From positions 1-20,135 of the IMG/VR virus record IMGVR_UViG_3300027909_000068: DNA of 20,135 nt; one strand, given 5' to 3'. Each line of letters opens with the position of its first letter. Within the stretch, counting starts at the first letter, position 1. Positions 6,716 to 13,147 of this stretch are shown here, piece after piece. The notes under the pieces were generated by a model, which was not told the origin of the DNA, did no database searches, and saw only the letters and a program-made list of their open reading frames with translations. The stretch comes from a virus. Made by a program: the position numbers and the translations under genes.

Positions 6716-8434
6716 TTAGGGGCAGGTGAGGGTGCCCTGGCTGGTGGTCTTACCGCTCGGGCAGATCGGCACCGTGTAGACCCGGGAGACCGGGCACATC
6801 TGGACCATCGCCCAGCCCGTCTCCGTGAACAGGTGCGTGACCTGGTTGGTCGCCAGCTTGGTGGAGTCGTAGACCGAGTTCAGGGTGATGACATCCGAGA
6901 CCGCCCGGACCCAGGTGCCGGCCGGGAAGACCAGGAACTGCATCGAGGACGGCAGGTTGTTGATCGGGGTGTCCGCACCCAGGGCGCCAGTGGCCGCACC
7001 GGTAGCGAAGGCGTCCTGCCAGTCGTAGATGAACTGAACCCGGGCGCCCCGGCAGGAGAACGCGGAGCTGATGGCTGAGTCGGCCAGGCACAGCATCTCG
7101 GCGTAGTTGCCGCCGTTGCGACGGATCCAGTCGGCCCGCATCTGAGCGAGGATCCAGAACGGCATGATGACTTCGAGGGTGGCGCTGCGCTGCATGCGCA
7201 GGCGGTACTTGATGTCGACGATGGCCATCTCCACGGCCGAGAGGACCTGGGAGACGGTGGAACCGTCGGTGGCCCACGGGGCGAAGGCGGTCAGGTTGAC
7301 GGCGGTAGAGCCGGCAACCACGTCAGCGATCTGCTCACGGTTGATCTGGTGAGCCGACGCGGCCAGAGCACCACGGACGAAGGTGGCGGTGAACTCCGGA
7401 TAGCCCCGGTTGGCCAGGATGTTGCCGGTCAGGCAGAGGCCGGTGACGCCGAGCCGGGTGTCCACGAAGGACGGGCACGGGATCTCCAGACAGGTCTTGG
7501 TCGGGGAGCCGGCCGCTACCTGCGCCTCGGTCAGGTCGAAGTAGCCGGTGCCGGAGCCGAAGATGGAGTCGAACTCGATACCGGTGTTGTGGCGGATGCC
7601 GCCGCGCCGGGCCTGGACCTCCGGGAAGTCGGCCAGACCGTCGGTGGTGATCTGGAGACAGATGTCGTAGTCGGTCTCTGACGGTGCACACCAACCCTGA
7701 GCCGCGACCAGGGAGTCGCGCTCCGGGTGCTGCTCCTCGATCTCCTTGCGGCGCAGCTCCACCGAGCGAAGCAGGGATCCGCCGGGCAGCCGGCTCTCGT
7801 CGGCAACCGCGAGCAGCTTGTTGTAGTCGCTCTCGTCCATGTTGACGGAGAACTCGGCCGGGTAGTCCCGGCGCATGACCGCCACCGGGTAGTGGGAGAT
7901 GACCGGTCCGGCTGGTGCCCGGGAGCCGGCGAAGCCGGAGCTGCGGGCCTCGAACGCCTTGGCCACGTCCAGCAGGGTGGTGAACTCCTGGCCCACCTCG
8001 TAGTTCGGGACGCCAGCGGCGGCGACCAGGGACGAGTACCGGGGCCGGATGTCCTGGTGCTCGACCTTGGCCGGGGTCTTGGTCTTGCTGTTGCTGACGA
8101 TGTCGTTGAGGGTCACGTTGATGACGGCGCCCGCCGTGACGGCGGCCGGCTCCTCAGCCTTCTCCTCGGTCGACTCCTCTTCCTCCTCCGGCTCCTCGGG
8201 GGCCGTCTGGAGGGCGGAGAACCGGTCCTTGCGGGACTTGGCGTCCTGGATGTGGGCCGGGACTGTCTCGCGGAAGAAGGTCTGGAGGTCCTGGAGTTCA
8301 TCAAGCTGCTCATCGGTGACCGTGTCCGGAGTCACCGTCGCCATGATCGAGTTGAACTCGTTCTCGGCCTTGGCGCGCATGTCCTCGATCGCCGTGAAGG
8401 TGAACGGGCTCAGGTCTTCGGGAATCTGAAACAT
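6716..8434 (-). CDS. Major capsid protein, HK97-fold, with N-terminal scaffold domain
   Basis: This 572-residue protein begins MFQIPEDLSPFTFTAIEDMR, an opening common in actinophage major capsid proteins. Residues 1 to about 180 look like a cleavable delta/scaffold domain: helical, with an acidic stretch EEPEEEEESTEEKAEE at about 80-95. The mature-type region carries AQGWCAPSE (about 245-253), VQARRGGIRHNTG (about 273-285), LTGNILANRGYPEFTATFVRGALA (parts at about 335-357) and EVIMPFWILAQMRADWIRRN (about 421-440). The ATG at 8434 has AAAGGTG about 9 nt upstream. Ten cysteines are present. It lies downstream of the protease and is bracketed by a structured leader and a 3' hairpin, which fits the need for many copies. 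Confidence 0.93.
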   Translation of the reverse strand: MFQIPEDLSPFTFTAIEDMRAKAENEFNSIMATVTPDTVTDEQLDELQDLQTFFRETVPAHIQDAKSRKDRFSALQTAPEEPEEEEESTEEKAEEPAAVTAGAVINVTLNDIVSNSKTKTPAKVEHQDIRPRYSSLVAAAGVPNYEVGQEFTTLLDVAKAFEARSSGFAGSRAPAGPVISHYPVAVMRRDYPAEFSVNMDESDYNKLLAVADESRLPGGSLLRSVELRRKEIEEQHPERDSLVAAQGWCAPSETDYDICLQITTDGLADFPEVQARRGGIRHNTGIEFDSIFGSGTGYFDLTEAQVAAGSPTKTCLEIPCPSFVDTRLGVTGLCLTGNILANRGYPEFTATFVRGALAASAHQINREQIADVVAGSTAVNLTAFAPWATDGSTVSQVLSAVEMAIVDIKYRLRMQRSATLEVIMPFWILAQMRADWIRRNGGNYAEMLCLADSAISSAFSCRGARVQFIYDWQDAFATGAATGALGADTPINNLPSSMQFLVFPAGTWVRAVSDVITLNSVYDSTKLATNQVTHLFTETGWAMVQMCPVSRVYTVPICPSGKTTSQGTLTCP

Positions 8435-8470
8435 CGTGAGGGCACCTTTCGGAAGCCATGGTTAGGGCTC

Positions 8471-8498
8471 CCGGTGCGGCTCACAGCTCAGCCACCGG
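8471..8498 (-). promoter_or_regulatory. Leader hairpin A of the major capsid gene
   Basis: On the transcribed strand this reads CCGGTG, then the 16-nt core GCTGAGCTGTGAGCCG, then CACCGG. The 6-nt arms are perfectly complementary. Inside the core, GCT can pair with AGC around the loop GAGCTGTG, leaving CG bulged. It ends 36 nt before the capsid start codon. I know of no named RNA element with this core. Confidence 0.6.
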
Positions 8499-8514
8499 CT
8501 GGTGATTCAGATCC

Positions 8515-8540
8515 CGATACGGCTCACAGCTCAGCTATCG
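8515..8540 (-). promoter_or_regulatory. Leader hairpin B of the major capsid gene (second copy)
   Basis: It has the same 16-nt core as hairpin A (GCTGAGCTGTGAGCCG) but different outer arms, CGATA and TATCG, which are again complementary. Changed yet still paired arms around a constant core argue for a folded RNA rather than a simple duplicated DNA site. It is separated from hairpin A by 16 nt. Confidence 0.6.
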
Positions 8541-8551
8541 CGATCAAGGGG

Positions 8552-8580
8552 ATCATAACTACCTTTTGCTGTAAGTGCCA
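8552..8580 (-). promoter_or_regulatory. Candidate promoter for the major capsid gene
   Basis: The transcribed strand carries TATGAT at 8557-8552, five of six matches to the -10 consensus. Transcription would begin near 8545, just before hairpin B. At 17-nt spacing the -35 region reads TGGCAC, a poor match, so this rests on the -10 box and position only. Confidence 0.3.
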
Positions 8581-8714
8581 CCACCGGCCATTTGAACGGC
8601 CATTTGGGCATCGTGTTCAGTCTCGACTCGTCGGATTTCACCATTGGGAAGGTGAACTTCGAAGCCAGCTTCACGTCGAGTGCCAGGCTCCTGGTTTCCA
8701 TTGCATCCACACAC
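8559..8714 (-). CDS. Small Cys-containing phage protein (MCGC type, DUF7196-like)
   Basis: This 51-residue protein starts MCGCNGNQEP and ends AGGGTYSKR. The GTG at 8714 lies 2 nt after the upstream stop and has AAGGAGG with a 7-nt spacer, the best ribosome site in the window. An MC-x-C start, then a short strand like EVHLPNGE, VETEHDAQMAVQMA and a GGTY end match a family of tiny actinophage proteins that often sit next to the major capsid gene. I recall these as DUF7196, and that label comes from memory. The two N-terminal cysteines could bind metal. The function is unknown. Another frame through the same bases is open but lacks a ribosome site at the right place and shows no family pattern. 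Confidence 0.72.
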   Translation of the reverse strand: MCGCNGNQEPGTRREAGFEVHLPNGEIRRVETEHDAQMAVQMAGGGTYSKR

Positions 8715-8716
8715 AG

Positions 8717-11700
8717 TTACTCCTCCTTCTTCAAGGATCGCCGAATCCAGGCTCTCACCTCGGCGTAATCAGCCCGGCTCTCACCCAATGGCCCCAGTCG
8801 GTTGGTGATCTCCCACATCTGAACTGCACCATCACCGCTTTCATGAAGATGGCGCTTGGTCAGTTCTCGTTCGGCCTCGCGGGGATCCATTTCGCCACGA
8901 GAGATCTTACGTACTGTATCCAGCATCTGATCCAACACCGATACGGTTTCCCTGTTAGCTCCAATCTGTCCAGTCTTACGAGCAGTGGGGATCCTGGCCA
9001 GGTCCTCTAGGGCGCGGCGAACAGGACCCGGTACCCCTTCTGGTAGATCTAGCGGTTTAGCCGGAGGGGCACTTAGGGCATCGATCGTCTCTTGGATCCG
9101 GTCGGCGACAGCAGAGTCAGACGCTCGGGTCTTCAGCTTCTTGAGACCTGGAATGACATCGGATTCCAGATCCAGTTGTCCCTCTCTCTTCTTACCGACG
9201 CCTTCGCCTAGCCGGGCAATCTCATTAATGAACGAGTTGGGTTCCCGCTGATCTGTGTAGAGATCGGACCACAGCTCCCCCAGGCTGGAGTCGAGGTGAA
9301 CCAACCCCTGGTCTGCCCCTCCATTAGGGAGGTGGATCGGCTCATCCTCATTGGCCCGCTGGATCGGCTTGATCCGACCGTTGCCATCCGTAACCCGGGA
9401 TGCTCGTGCCACCGGTGGCCCCGGGCGTCCAGTCGCTTGCCGGAGTTGGGTCGACTGGGTCTGGGCAATCTCCCGTAGCCGGGAGGCGCGCTCACCCTGC
9501 TGAACCTCGGCGAGACGGGCAGCCGGAGCAGCACGCTGAGCCTTTTTAGCGGGAGACGGGGTCGGTACCACCTCCCTGGGTGCCGTGTACCGGTCAACTA
9601 GACCCTGGGTAATTCCCGCCTTACTGCGCCCCTTGACCCCGTGCTGCGCCCCCAGGTCCCGTAGCTCCGGGAACGTCAATCCAGCCACTGCGTCCCGGAC
9701 CTGCTGCTCGGTCTTGGCACCTTGGAGCCGCTCCAGGGCCGACTGCTTGATCCGGGTCTCCAGGGTGTCAGCCCGAGCCTCGGCAGCCTTGACCTCCGGC
9801 GCCACCTTCTTAGCTGGGGCAGCCTTCTTGACGGCGGGGCGCCGGGTGCTCTTCAGGCGCTCAGCCAGTTGCTCGACCCGGTCCCCCAGGTCGTAGTCAC
9901 GCTGCTTGAGTGCCTCCGATTCCGGGGTCCGGTCTTCTCCCCGTAGGCCGCCGTACCGGATTGCACCCGCACTCCGGATAGCCTTGGCTTCCCTCTCCAG
10001 CTCTCGGCCAATAGCGGCCGGCGTCAGCTTCCCCCCATCAAGCTGAGCCTGGACCTTGTCCAGACGCTCGGGCGGCAGGTCTAGTCCCTCAGCGATCAGC
10101 CGGACATCCACCTTGCCCTTCTCTGTCGGCAGCTTCGGAGGAGCAGCCTTCTTTGCAGCCTTAGTTGCCCGACGGGCCAGCTCCTGCTCGGCCATCTTCC
10201 GGGCGATGTCCTGGATGACTTCATCGGCAGTGTCACCGCTGGGGCGATCCAGACCCTGGCGCACTGCCTCATCCTTCAGGGCCTCTGGGTCAACCTCCTG
10301 AATCGCCCTGTGAACCTCGGCTGGGACTTCGAGCTGGAGCAGCTCCTTCTTGGTGACCGGGGGCTCGGCCTCGAAGTGGCCCCGCATGAACGTCGAGGCA
10401 CGCTTCTGCGACTCGATAGCTTGCTCCAAGCTTTCAGCCTGAGCAATGAGCTTGCGCCGCTCCGCTGGGGACATGTTGCCCCGCAGTGCCGCATCGATGT
10501 CGTTCAGCTCGTCCTGGTTGAGGGCGACCTCCGACTCCATGCGCCGGATGCCCTCCTCTGGAGTGAGCTTCCCAGAGGAAACGTCATCCCGGATCTCGCG
10601 CATGGACCGGCCAGCCGACCCGCTTGGGGCACCGATGTCGGAGCCGTCCCATGCCTCCTTGAAGCTGGTGCGACGCTCCGGTGTGGACACTGGGGCATCC
10701 ACCCGGGGGCCAGGGACTGAGCCCTTCGGTACCCGCTTAACGGCGCGGACCTCCTCGGGAGTAGCCGCCTCGGCGAAGCCCTTCGTGAGCACCCTGCCGT
10801 CCGGCGACAGGAAGCTGCGCCGGACGATGACAGCCGAGTCACGAGGGTTCAGGCCGGGACCGTCATAGCGGGTGGGGTCGAAGCTGGTGACCTCCCCGAT
10901 CCTTCCGACCGGCGTAACACCCTGCTCCCGGGCCAGCCGCTCGGCCAGTTCAACCAGACCTTCGCGATCACTGGCGAGGAGCTGGTCACGCATGTCATCG
11001 GGGAGCTTGCTGGTCTTGGCACGGGACCGGATGCGGGCCTTGAGCGCCCGGTCACTGGCCTTGTCACCAACCAGTTGCTCGATCTCGGAGGCAACGTCAC
11101 CGAAGGGCCGGATCCGGTCGTACTCAGCCTGCTGAGCCCGGGCTGCGTCCTCAGCTGCCCTGTTGGTACGGGCGTGCTGGATCTCCTTGACGATGTCGGC
11201 CTTGAGCATGCGGGACTTCAGCTCAACGTCCTCATCCGAGGCAATCTTGCGTAGCTCGGAGATGGTGTGCTTCTCAAGCGGCTTCCCGGCCTTGGCTTCC
11301 TCAAATGCCTCCATGGGAGCCCGGCCCCGGGCCGCTCCTGCTTCGCGGGCACTCTGAAGAGCTTCCTCATGAGAACGACCCGCCGTGCGCCGGGCACGAT
11401 AAGACCGCTGCTCCGATGGACTCAGGTCGGACAGATCTCGCTTCTCAGCCGTGGTGAGTTCCGGCATCCGTCGAACAGCCTTGGCCGGTGCCGCTGCTTT
11501 GGCGGCCTTAGCTGGTGTCGGAGCAGCCGGTGCCGCCTTCTTGGCAGCCGGAGCCTTCGGAGCCGCCTTCTTGGCTGGAGTCCCTTCCATCTGGTCCACA
11601 AGGGACTGAAGACGCTTGTGCTCATCCAGGTCCGGGTTAAAGCGCCCGTCCCGCTTGAGCTGAGCCACCCGGTTGCGGACCGACTCCTGCTGTGCCGGAG

Positions 11701-13147
11701 TCAGACCGGCAGCCTTGGTGCCACCTTCAGAGGAGACAGCCTTCTTGGCCCGTGGGGCAGCCTTCTTGACTGCCTTGGCCGGTGCCGGTGCAGCAGTCTC
11801 CCGAGCCCCGAGCCCATGCTCACGGCGGATCACGTCGGCAAGCTGCTCCAGGGCACTGATGTCACCAGGGAGGTCCCGGTCCTCGACGCCCGTCCGCTCG
11901 TTCTCTCGATTGACATCCTGGAATGTCTGAATGTCTCGTTCAAGGTCACGCAGCACATCGCCTGGGTCCCGCTTACCGGAGGCAACCCGTAGGTAAGCCT
12001 CGTTCCAAGCGACACGGCGAGGCCCCCGGGAGGGGGATGGAAGGTTGGCGTCACGGACGATCTGCCGGAACTGCTCCCCACTCGGGGCTGTCGGTAGCTC
12101 TGGTGCTGACGGCTCTGGAGCCGGCGCCTGCGGCTGCCCTCCAGCACCCGGTGTGATAACCGGTTCGTTACGTGGCTCAACGCCCTTCGGTAGCTGCTCC
12201 GTGGTCTGTGGGGCAACCGTTTCTTCGGTCTGACGTAGGCGTAGGTCCTCCACCCGCTTTTGGCGCCGCTCGACATCGGCTGGGACGGCAGCCTCGGCCA
12301 TGGCGATACGTTCCTGGGCCTTCTGTTCCTCCCGAACAACGGACGGCTCCCGCATCTGCGCCCGGCTGCGGATGCGCTCAGCTCGCTGCTCCGGGGTCAG
12401 GTCCACACCCGACGGAGCCCGATTGACCGGAGTCGGGGTCTCGCCCTTCGTGCGCGGTGTGGCGACTGCTGCCACATACCAGCCACCAGAGCCGTCGGGC
12501 TGCACCTTGGTGATCCGGAATTCCTGATCCCGGTCAAAGGACATACCTCGGTCGTCACGGTGTCGTGCGAATGGAATGATCGGAGTCCCCTTAGGAACCG
12601 CAATCCGCATAGTGATCTTGCCCGGACCGGCGGCTCCACCGGAAGACTTACCCCCGGCTGTGATGATCCCGCCGATCTGGCCGGTGTTATACGCCCGGTC
12701 AGCGATCAACTTCCCGGTGAAATCTTCGATGCCGCCATCCTCTGCCCCCAGTTGCTCTGGGGTGAGTCCGAAGGCATGGGCATCTACCGTGCGGGAAATG
12801 ATCAGGTCGCTGTCAGCCGGGATCTTGTGAGCATCCATAGCCTGAACGAAGCGCTTAGTTTCTTCGTCCATATCACCAGAACGCAGGTGGGCATTGGCCT
12901 GATCAATGTCCATGTGCAGTCGGGCGTATTCATCCCGGGTCCACGGCTTCTTGGACCCCTGGTTGAACATGTACTGGGCAGCTTGAGCGTCATTGGTGAA
13001 GGTGCGGGGACTGAACGAATCCAGGAAGTTGAAGATCTTATCGGCGACAGACTTCGCCATCGCCCACTTCTTACGGAAGCGCCCACGCTTGTCTCGCGGG
13101 TGGAGTGCTTCCTCCCGCGAGCCCCAGGCGCCACCAATCCCAGCCAT
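8717..13147 (-). CDS. Giant head-associated protein with ADP-ribosyltransferase-like N-terminal domain and repeated DNA-binding-like modules
   Basis: This is a 1476-residue protein between the protease and capsid genes. It starts with an EEALHPRDKRGRF segment common in actinophage virion proteins. Residues about 60-230 look like an ADP-ribosyltransferase: R119 in LIISRT, a weak STS-like DRAYNTG at 150-156, KITMRIAVPKGTPII at 177-191, and SFDRDQEFRI with D207-x-E209 as the ExE-type site. The rest is Arg/Glu/Ala-rich helix divided by KKAAP-type linkers at about 460-470, 525-560, 995-1004, 1105-1117 and 1198-1208. Three SAP/HeH-like segments lie at about 628-656, 953-981 and 1158-1187. A GK-x-(T/D)P...R-x-(L/M)E motif recurs at about 391, 859 and 1039, with a weaker copy near 1418. 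The ATG at 13147 has GGGG 8 nt upstream. I infer a packaged, possibly injected effector. Confidence 0.65.
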   Translation of the reverse strand: MAGIGGAWGSREEALHPRDKRGRFRKKWAMAKSVADKIFNFLDSFSPRTFTNDAQAAQYMFNQGSKKPWTRDEYARLHMDIDQANAHLRSGDMDEETKRFVQAMDAHKIPADSDLIISRTVDAHAFGLTPEQLGAEDGGIEDFTGKLIADRAYNTGQIGGIITAGGKSSGGAAGPGKITMRIAVPKGTPIIPFARHRDDRGMSFDRDQEFRITKVQPDGSGGWYVAAVATPRTKGETPTPVNRAPSGVDLTPEQRAERIRSRAQMREPSVVREEQKAQERIAMAEAAVPADVERRQKRVEDLRLRQTEETVAPQTTEQLPKGVEPRNEPVITPGAGGQPQAPAPEPSAPELPTAPSGEQFRQIVRDANLPSPSRGPRRVAWNEAYLRVASGKRDPGDVLRDLERDIQTFQDVNRENERTGVEDRDLPGDISALEQLADVIRREHGLGARETAAPAPAKAVKKAAPRAKKAVSSEGGTKAAGLTPAQQESVRNRVAQLKRDGRFNPDLDEHKRLQSLVDQMEGTPAKKAAPKAPAAKKAAPAAPTPAKAAKAAAPAKAVRRMPELTTAEKRDLSDLSPSEQRSYRARRTAGRSHEEALQSAREAGAARGRAPMEAFEEAKAGKPLEKHTISELRKIASDEDVELKSRMLKADIVKEIQHARTNRAAEDAARAQQAEYDRIRPFGDVASEIEQLVGDKASDRALKARIRSRAKTSKLPDDMRDQLLASDREGLVELAERLAREQGVTPVGRIGEVTSFDPTRYDGPGLNPRDSAVIVRRSFLSPDGRVLTKGFAEAATPEEVRAVKRVPKGSVPGPRVDAPVSTPERRTSFKEAWDGSDIGAPSGSAGRSMREIRDDVSSGKLTPEEGIRRMESEVALNQDELNDIDAALRGNMSPAERRKLIAQAESLEQAIESQKRASTFMRGHFEAEPPVTKKELLQLEVPAEVHRAIQEVDPEALKDEAVRQGLDRPSGDTADEVIQDIARKMAEQELARRATKAAKKAAPPKLPTEKGKVDVRLIAEGLDLPPERLDKVQAQLDGGKLTPAAIGRELEREAKAIRSAGAIRYGGLRGEDRTPESEALKQRDYDLGDRVEQLAERLKSTRRPAVKKAAPAKKVAPEVKAAEARADTLETRIKQSALERLQGAKTEQQVRDAVAGLTFPELRDLGAQHGVKGRSKAGITQGLVDRYTAPREVVPTPSPAKKAQRAAPAARLAEVQQGERASRLREIAQTQSTQLRQATGRPGPPVARASRVTDGNGRIKPIQRANEDEPIHLPNGGADQGLVHLDSSLGELWSDLYTDQREPNSFINEIARLGEGVGKKREGQLDLESDVIPGLKKLKTRASDSAVADRIQETIDALSAPPAKPLDLPEGVPGPVRRALEDLARIPTARKTGQIGANRETVSVLDQMLDTVRKISRGEMDPREAERELTKRHLHESGDGAVQMWEITNRLGPLGESRADYAEVRAWIRRSLKKEE

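Follow-up and report, generated by a model that had tools for sequence, protein, structure and literature searches.

A conserved leader hairpin at the predicted 5′ ends of late mRNAs in actinomycete phages, with a possible role as a translational switch

Genes and leader features of the window

The window is the whole 20,135-base stretch of the virus record and holds a late operon on the minus strand. The operon order is terminase, portal, a MuF-type gene, a protease/portal-like gene, an open reading frame of 1476 aa, a 282-nt gap, the major capsid gene, connectors, the major tail gene and the tape measure gene. The gap (8435-8716) is the sole long intergenic gap in the window, as a preliminary description of this DNA had noted. 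The 1476-aa frame (8717-13147), just upstream of the capsid gene, gave weak endonuclease VII-like and Rho_N-like matches only; in Gordonia phages a gene annotated as RNA ligase is found near the equivalent position. On the minus strand the gap contains, in order, TATGAT (8557-8552), hairpin 1, hairpin 2, a third stem and GAAAGG, followed by the ATG at 8434. The features are listed below.

8552..8557, minus strand: TATGAT, a -10-like element and presumed capsid-gene promoter, assigned from sequence, with a predicted transcription start near 8545
8515..8540, minus strand: hairpin 1, arms CGATA/TATCG (8536-8540 / 8515-8519) flanking the core GCTGAGCTGTGAGCCG (8520-8535); model R2 34.9 bits, E 8.5e-7; a member of the exact-core covariation set
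8471..8498, minus strand: hairpin 2, arms CCGGTG/CACCGG (8493-8498 / 8471-8476), core GCTGAGCTGTGAGCCG (8477-8492); model R2 40.4 bits, E 3.4e-8
8451..8472, minus strand: hairpin 3, a GGGAGCC/GGCTTCC stem just 5′ of the Shine-Dalgarno sequence, sharing 2 nt with the end of hairpin 2; assigned by folding, with a similar hairpin in relatives
8445..8450, minus strand: GAAAGG, Shine-Dalgarno-like, capsid gene, assigned from sequence
8436..8446, minus strand: GGTGCCCTCAC before the ATG, with GTGAGCCGCACC (8473-8484, 3′ half of hairpin 2) as its predicted partner in a rival, start-sequestering predicted fold
6716..8434, minus strand: major capsid protein (MCP) gene, 572 aa, ATG start, served by the leader; PHROG 777 major head protein, E 6e-128

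The preliminary description had called the downstream gene a capsid gene, which the PHROG 777 match bears out, and had placed before it two tandem units with an identical 16-nt core and outer arms that differ yet are complementary. The minus strand has GCTGAGCTGTGAGCCG in two exact copies 43 nt apart, 8477-8492 and 8520-8535, and the arms are CCGGTG/CACCGG in one unit and CGATA/TATCG in the other. From the end of hairpin 2, the downstream unit, to the capsid ATG is 36 nt, as had been counted. Shuffled sequences gave an expectation of 0.56 matches to GCTGAGCTGTGAGCCG at up to 3 mismatches, and two exact copies at this spacing are therefore not attributed to chance. When the window was scanned with model R2, the best match beyond the two hairpins had an E value of only 0.67; the window holds two copies of the element only, in tandem and before the capsid gene only.

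Two features of the gap had gone unremarked before. TATGAT stands directly upstream, 11 nt before the first arm of hairpin 1, and hairpin 3 occupies 8451-8472. Hairpins resembling the latter (GGGAG..CTCCC with a recurring TAAC-like loop) were seen just before the Shine-Dalgarno sequence in relatives L032-L041.

Hairpin structure and covariation

IMG/VR was scanned for the GCTGAGCTGTGAGCCG core alone, which yielded 28 stretches. Core matches ∼40-75 nt before a capsid-size open reading frame carried many different arms that were still complementary; the few located elsewhere were mostly unpaired. Core sequence and capsid location were the criteria for a set of 17 exact-core hairpins; the arms were not considered. 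Paired cells made up 94.7% of this set against 77.7% after shuffling, double-changed cells numbered 26 against 7, and 0 of 500 shuffles reached the observed value of either measure. As the arms played no part in its selection, the exact-core set is the cleaner test of covariation. The larger sets A6 and A7 were selected partly for paired arms and their arm counts are inflated for that reason. Paired cells reached 92.6% in a set of 42 sequences.

Variant leaders were gathered from capsid relatives, and a descriptor search recovered the hairpin in 91 of 155 such leaders and in 83 of 775 shuffled leaders. In the family fold, an outer stem that covaries is followed by bulged C-N-G / C-(N)-G pairs and, innermost, a short stem. 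From an alignment of 42 diverse sequences and nothing else, RNAalifold returned the outer stem, C2-G16, G4-C15 and an inner GCU/RGC stem, in agreement with the structure inferred beforehand. This family-supported pairing inside the core extends the preliminary description. In the inner stem the second GCU of the core pairs with RGC, and the inner C-G pair is replaced by U-A in two sequences and by U-G in thirteen. An earlier pairing of the first GCU with AGC (pairing A, model R1) was dropped because of these changes at the second-GCU pair and because RNAalifold returned the second-GCU pairing. Unlike the family comparison, thermodynamics alone favours an A-like inner pairing for the window core.

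The bulged-core residues C2, G4, C15 and G16 are nearly invariant and the arms vary freely. The core GCTGGCCGAGGGCCG by itself is nonspecific, most of its IMG/VR matches having unpaired arms and looking like chance. The motif spans ∼26-32 nt with few invariant unpaired residues, from which we infer that a metabolite riboswitch aptamer is unlikely. A core variant, GC[TAC]GC[CT][AG][CT]GGTCCG, with UNCG-like loops and covarying arms and often in tandem, was seen upstream of MCP genes at further loci (L191, L206, L220, L221 and others).

The preliminary description had taken the compensatory change within one locus as a sign of a selected RNA structure and had proposed a search upstream of capsid genes in related phages. 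Homologous leaders with complementary arms were found there, and they keep paired, covarying arms. Comparison of related phages thereby supports the hairpin as a selected, conserved leader RNA structure.

Promoter and predicted 5′ end

In 59 of 66 non-redundant leaders the 50 nt that precede the first hairpin core contain a TANNNT sequence, against 4 of 66 and 8 of 66 in control intervals further upstream. Most of these -10-like elements lie 10-30 nt upstream of the core, so that the hairpin is predicted to lie at the start of the transcript or immediately after it. Copies of the element generally stand ∼15-30 nt behind a -10. Both kinds of start used in this work, of translation and of transcription, are predictions. 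Among Streptomyces matches selected on the core only, arms of at least 3 bp were present at 101 of 104 sites with a -10 and at 23 of 66 sites without one (p 7e-20). Because the element stands directly behind a promoter-like -10, late mRNAs are predicted to begin with it as their 5′-terminal structure.

The position relative to the -10 is nearly fixed, as would be expected of a DNA element, either an operator or a site in the initial transcribed sequence read by a late transcription factor, with the arm symmetry incidental. Against this, the arms conserve complementarity and not sequence, and they are paired mainly where a promoter-like -10 is present. Arm pairs at 138 promoter-linked sites also included 44 G-U and 6 A-C, a strand asymmetry from which the RNA is taken to be the sense strand. 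A DNA element is accordingly regarded as highly improbable.

A hairpin at the 5′ terminus could instead act as a stabiliser or output enhancer that involves no switch: by blocking 5′-end-dependent decay it would raise expression of the abundant late proteins. The -10 and the core of Streptomyces phages have their first bases ∼18 nt apart, which places the hairpin a few nt from the predicted 5′ end; the genes that follow the element encode abundant proteins, and 5′-terminal stem-loops that stabilise mRNA have precedents in ompA and T7 gene 10. Any stable stem would suffice for such a role, yet C2, G4, C15 and G16 hardly vary and the arms are free to do so. Nor does stabilisation predict the complementarity between arms and start sites described below, and we consider it a rather unlikely explanation of the element.

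Distribution over late genes, phages and prophages

On sequence comparison, the hairpins of the window belong to a widespread element at the predicted starts of late mRNAs (capsid, tail, lysis) in actinomycete-infecting viruses. Gordonia phage Portcullis has an identical 15-nt core before the genes for MCP, major tail protein (MTP), tape measure and lysin A. In Gordonia phage Ali17 three sites (MCP, major tail, lysin A) share a core that differs from that of Portcullis, and Salete has matches before MCP, major tail and tape measure. Eight Streptomyces prophage contigs carried 3-9 matches each, 60 in total, and within every contig all of them lay on a single strand; the downstream genes were those for MCP, major tail, tape measure, minor tail, tail fibre and endolysin. 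In two Streptomyces chromosomes 9 of 10 and 7 of 10 matches fell inside a prophage region. Scans of the control genomes lambda, phiC31 and Kela gave no match, and the control ZL12 gave one weak match. Capsid leaders comprised 12 tandem and 49 single cases; most tail and lysin sites are single.

Leaders in mycobacteriophage cluster B look related but divergent. Those of cluster B phages and mycobacterial prophages (L060, L248, L249, L305-L316) have TTCC/GGGGA arms, a related core such as CTGGCTGCGGGCCG and a TACGGT-like -10; RagingRooster, the sole cluster B genome scanned with model R3, gave no match. A similar hairpin, GCTGGCCGCTAGGCCG, stands before the PHROG 777 capsid gene of Pseudanabaena phage Pam4, a cyanophage whose host on record lies outside the actinobacteria; a scan of Pam4 with model R3 gave no match. 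The capsid gene of Mycobacterium phage Baee (KR080199.1) is annotated with a GTG start, at locus 2362, that falls inside a hairpin-like sequence, CTGAGCTATGTGCCG. A candidate start ∼55 nt further on (GAGGAGTTCGCAGTGACT) agrees with the start annotated in Rinkes, and from these sequences the annotated Baee capsid start is probably wrong. Downstream of the capsid gene, most cultured relatives (L054-L061) have strong GC-rich inverted repeats that may be terminators or sites of processing.

All leader-bearing capsid genes tested belong to PHROG 777, with identities down to ∼27-29%. Nine phages, some with incomplete records, were compared by all-vs-all blastp. Nine families are common to all of them and look like virion genes, the capsid protein included. 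No non-structural gene was common to all nine in this comparison, which therefore offers no regulator candidate.

The single capsid family, and the presence of its protein among the nine common families, fit an operator to which the capsid protein binds, autoregulating capsid synthesis only. Capsid autoregulation was the early leading idea; whole-record scans then found the tail and lysin sites. With the same core standing before tail, tape measure and lysin genes, a capsid-only operator is very unlikely. In a wider version, a virion protein may feed back on all late genes.

A conserved core wherever a late transcript is predicted to begin would also suit a cis-acting antitermination RNA, the nascent hairpin binding RNA polymerase and making late transcription resistant to terminators, as with the put RNAs of HK022; several relatives have terminator-like hairpins after the capsid gene. 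Against this, the element recurs before single late genes and not once per operon, in one or two copies and not as a fixed pair. Antitermination does not predict arm/start complementarity either, and we judge it unlikely.

Arm/start complementarity and the proposed switch

Sites of the Streptomyces class show complementarity between the Shine-Dalgarno/start region and the 3′ arm with its following bases, far above that of shuffled sequence (n=100, p=2e-10) and reaching at least 7 bp at only about a quarter of sites; the 5′ half gave no significant result against the start region (p=0.82). Duplexes at different genes include GGTCTCCA/TGGAGACC and GGCAACC/GGTTGCC. The complementary part in the Gordonia class is the 5′ half (p 1.7e-3), which matches the start over up to 11 bp including the AUG. 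The duplexes CATCGCTGG/CCAGCGATG at MCP and CATTGCTGCTG/CAGCAGCAATG at MTP both take in the start codon, and the Gordonia lysin A site and some others showed no arm/start complementarity. Opposite arms of the hairpin are thus directed against the start site in these lineages.

Across 50 capsid leaders the hairpin was predicted to form less readily with the native downstream sequence than with a shuffled one (p=5e-6); the motif hairpin probability given by ViennaRNA was low even with shuffled downstream sequence. The minimum free energy of the window leader is -47.7 kcal/mol, against -38.0 kcal/mol with hairpin 2 enforced, a gap of 9.7 kcal/mol. In the best fold the 3′ half of hairpin 2 is paired with start-proximal sequence (GGTG/CTCAC before the ATG); shorter prefixes of the leader fold hairpin 1 and, at 80 nt, hairpin 2. 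Arm/start complementarity was not significant in the exact-core class to which the window belongs (n=12), so a switch in this class is an extrapolation, its start pairing coming from one fold prediction.

Starting from what the comparisons gave, that is, a conserved hairpin close to a promoter-like -10, its spread over several late genes and arm/start complementarity in two groups, we propose that the element serves as the sensing part of a switch in translation, in which the motif hairpin competes with a start-sequestering duplex. With the motif hairpin formed, the arms would be occupied and the ribosome-binding site free, which we infer to be the ON state. With the hairpin not formed, one arm would pair with the Shine-Dalgarno sequence or the start codon and translation would be shut. 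A factor recognising the conserved core, whether a virion protein, another phage protein or a host protein, would hold the hairpin in the ON state and so coordinate the late proteins.

The element probably switches translation of late mRNAs on and off. The fuller statement, that the hairpins are a conserved RNA element at the predicted 5′ ends of late mRNAs in actinomycete phages with PHROG 777 capsids and act as a translational switch, is put forward with moderate confidence. Among the functions that the preliminary description had listed, translational control is the best supported, through arm/start complementarity; its limitation to capsid output does not hold, the element also preceding tail, tape measure, minor tail and lysin genes. 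More tentatively, these phages may have a phage-wide late RNA regulon, in which the common 5′-terminal hairpin is read by a single trans factor, perhaps from the virion or perhaps an RNA-binding protein of the host, that opens start-sequestered mRNAs from several late promoters and so coordinates capsid, tail and lysis synthesis post-transcriptionally.

To our knowledge, late-gene activation in actinobacteriophages is largely unknown. Hundreds of related actinobacteriophages have been sequenced and are grown in teaching and research laboratories. A common hairpin at capsid, tail and lysis promoters is a concrete, mutable handle on late-gene activation. In annotation the element can serve as a marker of late promoters and has brought to light at least one capsid start, that of Baee, which is likely to be wrong; the RNA family thereby added has no entry in Rfam.

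Comparison with known systems

The preliminary description could name no RNA family for the hairpins, and Rfam 15 agreed: cmscan returned nothing above the gathering threshold in the window or in 15 loci that carry the element or are relatives of such loci (122 kb), and searches at E values up to 10 and up to 1 returned chance matches only. No description of the element was found in the open-access journal literature searched.

The leaders of T7 gene 10 and ompA have 5′-terminal hairpins that stabilise mRNA. The likeness lies in a 5′-terminal leader hairpin before the gene of an abundant protein (capsid in T7), and the spacing of the element from the -10 is compatible with a stem a few nt from the predicted 5′ end; the conserved bulged core and the arm/start complementarity set the present element apart. 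Coat-protein operators of the RNA phages MS2 and PP7 are bulged hairpins near a start codon, as here. The present element differs in serving several genes of dsDNA phages from a predicted 5′-terminal position, where a capsid operator would stand only before the gene of its binding protein. The HK022 put antitermination RNA likewise forms stem-loops in the leader of a phage transcript, behind a promoter, and to that extent, by description only, the two are alike. A put site has two adjacent stem-loops, whereas most capsid leaders here have a single one; the element recurs in one or two copies at many late genes, has other conserved residues and shows predicted start-site pairing.

Repeated intergenic leader sequences have been reported in another Gordonia phage, CaiB, with the motif TGTTGT/GCGGGA/ACCCGCTC/GAGAGGAC; that motif lacks the present core, and the report describes no structure (PMC9302106). 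In the leaders of the T4 late genes e, soc, 49 and I-TevI the start site is sequestered by an RNA helix and a late promoter stands a short way upstream; transcripts from the gene e late promoter lack the 5′ strand of the helix (PMC3014915). The likeness is a Shine-Dalgarno sequence or AUG held in an RNA helix with a promoter close by. Such pairing is suggested here by complementarity in a large subset of sites and, in the window, by the predicted fold. The difference from gene e is that the predicted starts of the actinomycete-phage transcripts, themselves predictions from -10 spacing, lie upstream of both helix strands, so that the predicted transcripts include both strands and, in addition, a conserved hairpin, present at many genes, that competes with the helix. 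The kind of element, a cis-acting phage leader RNA with start sequestration, is thus known; the family and its regulon-wide layout appear to be new.
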